A DNA stretch of 64,000 nucleotides. Source: Sedimenticola sp. GTDB taxonomy: Bacteria; Pseudomonadota; Gammaproteobacteria; Chromatiales; Chromatiaceae. Location: positions 1 to 64,000 of the forward strand of contig JALXAM010000068.1 of NCBI GenBank assembly GCA_026992075.1, read 5' to 3'. Below the pieces are notes generated by a model. That model ran no database searches and had not been told where the DNA came from. It worked only from the letters and a program-made list of their open reading frames with translations. The translations under genes were made by a program, and so were the position numbers. This document shows, in pieces, positions 52,457-53,233 of the stretch. Position 1 is the stretch's first letter. Every line of letters begins with the position of its first letter.

Positions 52457-52489
52457 GGGGCAATCATACCCCGAGAGGCGGGCCCGCCG

Positions 52490-52519
52490 TTTTCAATTCC
52501 CTGTCGATTCCGGTATCCT
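52490..52519 (+). promoter_or_regulatory. Likely promoter of tRNA-Ser(UGA)
   Basis: TTTTCA and TATCCT are spaced by 18 bp, ending 11 bp before the tRNA. Neither box is perfect. Confidence 0.4.
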
Positions 52520-52530
52520 TTGGCGCCCGT

Positions 52531-52620
52531 GGAGAGGTGGCAGAGCGGTTGAATGCACCGGTCTTGAAAACCGGCAGGGGTTAACGCCCCTCCAGGGTTC
52601 GAATCCCTGCCTCTCCGCCA
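52531..52620 (+). tRNA. tRNA-Ser(UGA)
   Basis: A 90-nt class II tRNA. The acceptor stem is GGAGAGG/CCTCTCC with discriminator G and encoded CCA. The anticodon stem is CCGGT/ACCGG with loop CTTGAAA, anticodon TGA at 52565-52567. The long variable arm is AGGGGTTAACGCCCCT and the T arm has GGTTCGAATCC. Confidence 0.97.
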
Positions 52621-52635
52621 TTCTCCCTCATTGCC

Positions 52636-52760
52636 GGAGAGGTGCCGGAGCTGGCCGAACGGGCTTGACTCGACAAGCGGCGCAGCCGCGCAGGACGCCG
52701 GAGCGTAGCGACGGCGCCCCGAAGGGGTGAGGCCGCAGGCCGAATCAAATCAAGTGACCC
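52636..52760 (+). pseudogene. Broken tRNA-Ser(CGA) copy interrupted after the anticodon
   Basis: The first 38 nt (52636-52673) equal the 5' half of the intact tRNA-Ser(CGA) at 52802, through the anticodon CGA. About 74 bp of unrelated hairpin DNA follow. Then AAATCAAGTGACCC (52747-52760) resumes the 3' side of the anticodon stem and the start of the variable arm. No T arm or 3' acceptor strand is present, so no functional tRNA can form. Confidence 0.85.
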
Positions 52761-52779
52761 ACTCACGCGAAGCGTGAGT
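52677..52779. repeat. Array of five GNA-triloop hairpins
   Basis: Five hairpins in a row, each closed by a GNA triloop: GCGGC-GCA-GCCGC (52677-52689); CGCCG-GA-GC-GTA-GC-GA-CGGCG (52696-52716), which includes a tandem GA/GA mismatch; CCCC-GAA-GGGG (52717-52727); GGCC-GCA-GGCC (52731-52741); and ACTCACGC-GAA-GCGTGAGT (52761-52779). The first four lie in the insertion that splits the tRNA-Ser copy; the fifth replaces its variable arm. Confidence 0.85.
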
Positions 52780-52801
52780 TGAAACAAGGCGACCGTTTTT
52801 C

Positions 52802-52892
52802 GGAGAGGTGCCGGAGCTGGCCGAACGGGCTTGACTCGAAATCAAGTGACCCCTCACGGGGTCCGTGGGTTCGAATCCCACCCTCTCCGCCA
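52802..52892 (+). tRNA. tRNA-Ser(CGA)
   Basis: A 91-nt class II tRNA with acceptor stem GGAGAGG/CCTCTCC, encoded GCCA end, anticodon stem CTTGA/TCAAG and loop CTCGAAA, anticodon CGA at 52837-52839. The variable arm is ACCCCTCACGGGGT and the T arm has GGTTCGAATCC. The base before it (52801) begins a 39-bp direct repeat shared with the broken copy at 52635. Confidence 0.96.
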
Positions 52893-52897
52893 TCTAA

Positions 52898-53233
52898 TCA
52901 AAAAAATTGTAATAAAAGCAATCTGTTATCAAGCATCAACCAACTGCTACCCCCAACCAGTCCCCCAATTAAACCCTTTTCCCATACCATCCAGTGGCGC
53001 CCACGAGCGTCTGCCCACCCACCACTACACTCTGCCAAGGATTTGATAATCGCTTTGATCGCCTGCTGCTGTTCCGGCGGCAGGCTGTCCCACTGGCTTG
53101 CCATTCCGATTGCCTCGTAACTCAACTCCGACAGCTTTACCGCTCGGTCGTCCTGTTCGCTATAGAGCCTGGCCACGGGCACGCCGAGGGTTTTGGCGAG
53201 GCCATGAGCTGGCTTGGGGTGCCATGTTGTCAT
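52898..53233 (-). pseudogene. Probable remnant of an XRE-type transcriptional regulator
   Basis: The minus-strand frame encodes KPAHGLAKTLGVPVARLYSE and then SYEAIGMASQWDSLPPEQQQ, which resembles the region after the helix-turn-helix of phage-type XRE repressors (LAxALGVPxxxLFxE... LPPEQQxAL). The helix-turn-helix itself is missing upstream, and the tail (WMVWEKGLIGGLV...) looks unrelated. No ribosome-binding site is evident. Its place next to a tRNA gene suggests the residue of an integrated element. A short functional protein cannot be ruled out. Confidence 0.45.

Follow-up and report, generated by a model that had tools for sequence, protein, structure and literature searches.

A broken tRNA-Ser(CGA) copy of Sedimenticola with a probable RtT-type hairpin insertion element in its anticodon loop

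Between two serine tRNA genes of a Sedimenticola genome, a 5′ copy of tRNA-Ser(CGA) is split by an array of short hairpins. We consider it likely that this array is an RtT-type hairpin insertion element, which has entered the anticodon loop of the duplicated and broken tRNA copy at a GA/A target (a slash marks the insertion point throughout). The tyrT repeats of E. coli (RtT) are its closest known relative.

The features of the locus are listed in Table 1, with positions referring to the window, i.e. the whole analysed stretch of 64,000 nucleotides. The initial annotation had noticed a 39-bp duplication of tRNA-Ser(CGA) with an insert of about 74 bp between the anticodon and the remainder of its loop. 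The duplication is exact (52635-52673 and 52801-52839), and the insert has a length of 74 nt. It starts directly after the anticodon CGA of the broken copy (52671-52673), and the tRNA text resumes behind it with AATCAAGTGACCC. Five hairpins with GNA triloops had been assigned to the array. All five are present, with triloops (GCA, GTA, GAA, GCA, GAA) that are closed by a C-G pair, the second of them, which has an upper stem of only 2 bp, having been read by eye. The fifth, however, is located outside the insert and falls within the variable arm of the tRNA copy: its 5′ arm is the CTCACG of the variable loop itself, while its 3′ arm is an inverted copy (by eye). A tandem GA mismatch had been described for a single hairpin; it is found in the second, but the base of the fourth (T-GA-G ... 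C-GA-A) has one as well.

Table 1. Features of the tRNA-Ser locus in the window.
Feature	Position	Strand	Source or remark
Intact tRNA-Ser(TGA), the first of the two tRNA genes	52531..52620	+	ARAGORN, Rfam
Displaced 5′ copy of tRNA-Ser(CGA), 38 nt: acceptor 5′ strand, D arm, anticodon-stem 5′ strand, anticodon CGA	52636..52673	+	Exact repeat; in G002, absent from G012
Probable RtT-type four-hairpin element, 74 nt, between tRNA positions 36 and 37	52674..52747	+	Model R1 match
Hairpin H1, GCGGC-GCA-GCCGC	52677..52689	+	Read from sequence, hairpin scan
Hairpin H2, CGCCG-GA-GC-GTA-GC-GA-CGGCG, with tandem GA mismatch	52696..52716	+	Sequence, DNA fold
Hairpin H3, CCCC-GAA-GGGG, most constant helix of the family	52717..52727	+	Sequence, family alignment
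Hairpin H4, T-GA-GGCC-GCA-GGCC-GA-A; pair outside tandem GA covaries in the family	52728..52744	+	Family alignment
Resumed tRNA text AATCAAGTGACCC, 13 nt: anticodon loop, stem 3′ strand, start of variable arm	52748..52760	+	Repeat
Fifth hairpin, ACTCACGC-GAA-GCGTGAGT, variable arm of the broken copy	52761..52779	+	Sequence; kept in G002
Spacer ahead of the intact gene	52780..52801	+	Sequence
Intact tRNA-Ser(CGA)	52802..52892	+	ARAGORN, Rfam

The claim that such an array is improbable by chance is borne out. In the window, four strict cGNAg hairpins (stem of at least 4) lie within 100 nt on the + strand, while among 300 simulated order-2 Markov windows the maximum was one such hairpin in 245, two in 54 and three in a single window, four never being reached. 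The global fold of the stretch shows no clear excess over shuffled versions (z -1.2 as DNA, -1.3 as RNA). At gathering score, Rfam returns nothing but tRNA at the window locus and likewise at the loci of 12 relatives, and a promoter scan returned none, even for the tRNA genes themselves. Below the cut-off, matches to the Rfam sX4 sRNA fall on tRNA-Ser genes (window 52519-52642 and L260:1317-1473), and this family may include a tRNA-Ser precursor; matches to RF04351 are likewise found antisense to tRNA-Ser. A short ORF adjoining the tRNA 3′ end (window 52898-53233, - strand) resembles, by eye, part of a phage-type regulator and is perhaps an old integration scar.

Introns of tRNAs often sit at position 37/38, and the initial annotation had pointed to the intron-like position of the insert. 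It is very improbable that the array represents a tRNA intron, whether group I or endonuclease-spliced. The insert does adjoin position 37/38, but the interrupted copy has neither a T arm nor an acceptor 3′ strand and is followed by an intact gene, and none of the Rfam matches obtained here belongs to an intron family. We rejected this reading because the interrupted copy is otherwise not a complete tRNA, so that the insert is not an intron of a working gene.

For the detection of related elements, a covariance model (R1) was built from 12 gapless copies of 75 nt from other genomes, with the flanks excluded. In the window it matches 52678-52747 with 30.3 bits (E 2.2e-5 over 634,455 bases; 9.3e-5 in a genome search). 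The genome of the window (G000) contains a second element (L255, G000:C8:20921-20993), which sits in a T-loop copy, with tRNA-Arg(TCT) on one side and tRNA-His(GTG) on the other, and scores 45.4 bits, above the element in the window. R1 matches 109 of 370 gammaproteobacterial genomes and 47 of 397 genomes of a phylum sample that again includes members of this class. With one Sedimenticola unit as BLAST query, 30 of 194 genomes of the taxonomic family gave matches, among them the genome of the window and that of the query. A search with the unit in 55 genomes, including that of the window, revealed similar arrays adjoining tRNA genes in other species, and in many family loci near-identical units follow in tandem directly after Ser tRNA genes. 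The search for similar arrays near tRNA genes, which the initial annotation had suggested, was thus successful: they are present in many genomes and often adjoin tRNAs. A pattern scan of named genomes matched at least 120 stretches. Of 80 titles listed for these, the ones naming a group are gammaproteobacterial and the rest refer to Proteobacteria, Pseudomonadota or a marine bacterium; some Klebsiella MAG titles in this listing are, at a guess, probably mislabelled.

The family core consists of H1, the dinucleotide GA, H2, H3 and then H4, which is flanked by tandem GA, and it mostly ends with RTCA. In an alignment of 148 matches (133 distinct rows), 96.8% of the pairs over the four helices are standard, both partners vary in 25 of 26 pairs, and the observed value was reached in none of 500 shuffles; the alignment had been fitted to the structure, which biases these values in its favour. 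When the structure was slid along the alignment, pairing dropped to 28-52%. The H4 pair outside the tandem GA (columns 183 and 230) is UA in 99 cases, CG in 26, GC in one and another combination in 5. The genomes G000 and G002 differ at six letters in 106 nt, five of which fall within the 15 triloop letters (P 1.6e-4), so that stems are conserved while loops change. Derivation of the array from a decayed coding gene was considered and tentatively rejected: ORFs cross it on both strands, but the stems are kept while the loops vary between these two genomes.

A role of single-stranded DNA had been proposed in the initial annotation, and here the results diverge with the measure. G-U pairs account for 36 of 2860 pairs in the element (1.3%), compared to 6.0-7.8% in three groups of tRNAs taken from the loci (149 of 1915, 36 of 522, 40 of 670). 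The scarcity of such pairs faintly suggests that DNA rather than RNA is the active form. By energy folding, however, the element (3.9%) hardly differs from terminators (4.3%).

Most tRNA-linked copies are found in sense orientation. Among the matches listed from the pattern scan, 109 of 152 have an intact tRNA gene at most 1 kb away, always on the same strand, the pattern having contained the flank ATCC, which favours sense T-loop sites by construction. The remaining 43 have no tRNA within 1 kb, 24 of them being near the left edge of the stretch. At the best-match loci of R1, 21 of 30 elements have an intact tRNA at a distance of no more than 400 nt, always in sense, and 9 do not (4 near an edge). 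Another 40 R1 matches, hand-picked from the class and phylum lists and in several cases from one genome, comprise 16 tRNA-linked copies in sense, a single one in antisense (L332, with tRNA-Asn at a distance of 390 nt) and 23 unlinked copies (1 near the edge). Given 22-86 tRNA matches per genome, we estimate that about 1% of positions are this close by chance. For some copies with tRNA flanks (e.g. L138, L179, L193, L296, L301), the stretch examined contains no intact tRNA.

The unlinked matches are embedded in ORFs, in other repeats or in one another. A reading in which the elements occur only beside tRNAs was dropped when the flank-free covariance model showed dispersed copies. At L245:1501-2539, two elements in opposite orientation flank a xerD-like gene (by eye), and the first one seems to hold its start codon. 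An origin from plasmids or phages was also rejected: one Thiodiazotropha unit gave no match to plasmids and phages, and in the 20 plasmid matches listed for the window region the matched ranges coincide with the two intact tRNA genes. The only viral contig among the pattern matches listed (L229:11145-11225) carries its copy beside a tRNA-like 3′ end and a terminator.

The comparison of orthologous tRNA-Ser loci in close relatives, also proposed in the initial annotation, led to an empty site. The locus is filled in G000 and G002, while G012, from the same genus, has the same two tRNAs separated by a short spacer without a unit. Filled and empty orthologous sites, by which a mobile element can be recognised, are thus found in G012 versus G000 and G002 and, in addition, in unfilled copies of a repeat described below. 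Presence and absence could also reflect loss.

The orientation bias and the conservation of the stems bear on the possibility that the arrays are functional trailer or spacer RNAs of tRNA operons, which have a regulatory job and in which the tRNA fragments are structural parts rather than scars of insertion; a function of this kind has been proposed for rtT RNA. This would agree with the orientation relative to the nearby tRNA, which is the same in all 109 tRNA-linked pattern matches listed (a scan that favours this outcome), in 37 of 38 R1 cases and in 20 of 20 loci found with the RtT model. The deep covariation and the conserved stems next to changing loops in G000 and G002 also fit, as does the tandem GA, which is known for RtT (PMC7657543, PMC8250186). 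On the other hand, the occurrence is patchy (30 of 194 family genomes by the one BLAST query) and the site is empty in G012; downstream units were located behind a terminator-like hairpin in 20 loci inspected by eye; and copies exist outside tRNA genes, in repeats and ORFs. We regard such a regulatory RNA as a possible but somewhat doubtful explanation.

The insertion reading, which we prefer, gains from the positions of the element. The site in the window is CTTGA-CTCGA/AA-TCAAG, i.e. the element lies in a 7-nt loop closed by a 5-bp stem. For the analysis of flank pairs, 67 of the 73 matches of one set were joined with sets of 148 and 40 matches (255 in total), of which 235 were kept after removal of duplicates and short flanks. 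Both ends were recognised in 178 of these; the left end was sought as GA or TTC(G/A)A, so that the GA rule is presupposed in this set. Around a 5/2 loop, 20 of the 178 flank pairs have five of five stem matches and 22 have four of five. Together these are 42 of 178, compared to a chance of about 1.6% for four or five matches, as estimated with equal letters.

A second placing was made without the GA assumption on 260 matches (including 72 of the 73 matches of one set, with one duplicate locus omitted). For the 161 distinct matches in tRNA-bearing loci, the last tRNA letter before the element falls into the T loop in 51 cases, the D loop in 10 and the anticodon loop in 9, with one case in a stem and one after the 3′ end. 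For the other 89, no position in a tRNA loop could be assigned from the left flank, which corresponds to the inverted tRNA strand in 33 cases and has no 8-letter match in 56. Such inverted flanks would be expected of downstream units, in which the tRNA 3′ end recurs as an inverted copy.

In 46 of the 51 T-loop cases the site reads GGTTCGA/ATC, and T-loop insertions in general follow TTCGA, or TTCAA in tRNAs that have this loop. The nine anticodon-loop cases (window, L021, L055, L112, L121, L189, L201, L311, L316) are without exception in Ser tRNAs with the anticodon CGA, GGA or TGA, the loops of which resemble the T loop. The window and L021 represent one locus seen in two species; for L121 and L311, the fit of the right flank is loose. 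In T loops and anticodon loops alike, the element follows the fifth residue of the 7-nt loop (YTNGA/AN). The D-loop cases are all in Ser tRNAs as well and mostly read CTGA/AGG or CTTA/AGG. Exceptions to GA are insertions after TTA in D loops and the CA found at L321 and L335. An intact copy of the tRNA gene usually adjoins the copy that bears the element, and L201:2567-2825 has one displaced tRNA-Ser(GGA) copy with elements in the D, the anticodon and the T loop.

Outside tRNAs, the left flank is often GA, too. In L319:1480-1600 a whole element is nested in H1 of another one, after CGA and before ATTTGG (by eye). In a dispersed repeat, all 24 unfilled copies read GA/AG before GCGGC (the pattern fixed GA and GCGGC, only the letters AG being free), while filled copies have GA, the element and then CGCGGC. 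The copy in G587 lies in the loop of an inverted repeat and that of L320 at the start of an ORF (by eye). The copies of G573 and G587 belong to larger dispersed repeats and so do not, taken alone, demonstrate movement of the element. The proposal of an element that recognises tRNA genes is therefore reasonable, as insertion into tRNA loops follows a rule. Many relatives, however, are found outside tRNA genes, and the tyrT repeats provide a precedent for the array.

Two further peculiarities were noted. The units of L123:1745-1941 have a D-loop left side and a T-loop right side, as if two elements of a single tRNA copy had recombined. At targets with A/AGG, the right side of the filled site is ACG, a one-letter change which recurs in L047 (D-loop units), L201:2567-2632 and L325-L331.

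The arrays might also be by-products of replication, in which fold-back and template switching at tRNA genes generate duplicated, inverted and hairpin-rich sequence without any specific element or enzyme. The fifth hairpin, an inverted repeat of the variable loop, would be such a product, and the inverted tRNA 3′ ends of downstream units (by eye), the 33 of 161 left flanks that match the inverted strand and the near-identical tandem units fit as well. However, one and the same conserved core recurs across many genera and tRNAs, without a change in its ends or its place in the loop, and copies with the same ends are dispersed far from tRNAs. We consider replication errors a rather unlikely source.

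Under our preferred reading of the array as an insertion element, spreading would proceed by insertion as folded hairpin DNA at GA/A sites exposed in loops, and those insertions that are accompanied by an intact tRNA copy would survive. Insertion into loops and survival next to an intact tRNA would explain where the element sits, how it ends, why it is nested and why an intact gene usually adjoins it. Tandem units would then multiply by unequal recombination, which explains that they are near-identical. The unit in the window begins 15 nt past one tRNA gene and extends up to the next, and because of this it is likely transcribed together with the tRNAs; processing of the operon transcript would then probably release it as a spacer RNA some 180 nt long, which is how the rtT RNA of E. 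coli arises. A DNA target does not account for the sense orientation at tRNAs, because TTCGAA is a palindrome.

As a tentative generalization, we propose that class-wide, protein-free hairpin elements, of which tyrT is one case, choose their target by shape, namely the junction between the fifth and sixth residue of a 7-nt loop (YTNGA/A), and hence occur in T loops and serine anticodon loops. Should the loop rule reflect targeting, an enzyme would be expected that places hairpin DNA, or copies of an RNA, into folded tRNA-like loops. For decades the tyrT repeats of E. coli have remained a curiosity without explanation. Their origin becomes testable once they are regarded as members of a family (109 of 370 genomes) whose structure and target rule are defined, as are most of its ends.

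Elements that are integrated by tyrosine recombinases at tRNA genes use anticodon and T loops and leave a displaced tRNA fragment beside the intact gene. The use of loops and the displaced fragment are shared with the locus in the window. In contrast to such elements, the unit of about 165 bp is too short for an integrase, and its boundaries are those of the hairpin core.

The elements could also be REP-like repeats that are moved by a Y1 transposase (RAYT, IS200/IS605-type) acting on single-stranded DNA, which we consider unlikely. Their palindromic, hairpin-based nature, the nested insertion and the lack of a target duplication at the junctions (by eye) fit a Y1 system, and Y1 genes occur in 22 of 25 element-bearing genomes. 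But no element was found in 30 Y1 loci (about 1.5 kb on each side, E up to 0.05), with more Y1 matches existing beyond these loci, and the element-bearing genomes G030, G734 and G825 have no Y1 match at E 1e-5. A GTAG-type tetranucleotide directly before the hairpin is a feature of REP/RAYT systems (PMC8266576), but in the window there is no GTAG directly before the hairpins; it occurs only across the H2 loop (by eye). Like REP and BIME sequences, the elements are short palindromic repeats and are dispersed in other genomes, but the family differs from REP/RAYT in its four-hairpin core with fixed ends. With PATEs, which are non-autonomous and of IS200/IS605 type, it shares hairpin ends, insertion after a short fixed word and, by eye, the absence of target duplications. 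It differs from them in the sense bias at tRNAs and in that no parent transposase was found in the 30 Y1 loci.

The closest similarity is to the tyrT repeats. In E. coli K-12, tRNA-Tyr is followed by units with ...AAGGTTCGA, hairpins with cGAAg and cGCAg loops, tandem GA, GAGTA or GAATA, and ATCCTTCCCCCACCACCA, and the Rfam model RtT (RF00391) matches four of these units. This model matches 60 of 276 sampled genomes, 18 of them above the cut-off, and its best 20 loci are all within 80 nt of an intact tRNA on the same strand (Ser 9, Tyr 6, Gln 5). Other tRNA-linked relatives score 30.5-43.6 bits, below the cut-off of 45, and in the window (52480-52930, E up to 5) there is no match. Conversely, R1 matches tyrT of E. 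coli weakly (16.1 bits). The two models nevertheless repeatedly mark identical places, e.g. in G306:C140, G382:C36 and G370:C286. Dispersed rtT-like elements upstream of gatY, rbfA and cvpA in enterobacteria have been reported and assigned to BIMEs (PMC2965389). In the literature covered, which excludes most older and most subscription papers, we found no description of RtT-like elements in the loops of other tRNAs.

What the window element and its family have in common with RtT is the core with cGNAg loops, tandem GA and the CCCGNAGGG hairpin (hairpins by eye). In RtT this core follows the TTCGA of a T-loop copy and is succeeded by the tRNA 3′ end, and the units are arranged in tandem by intact tRNAs. 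The copy in the window is instead placed in the anticodon loop of an upstream 5′ tRNA-Ser fragment and is without the RtT outer stem. This stem, formed with the tRNA 3′ end after a T-loop copy, is present in downstream units elsewhere (by eye). The window element shares the RtT core, yet stands outside RtT by the full definition.
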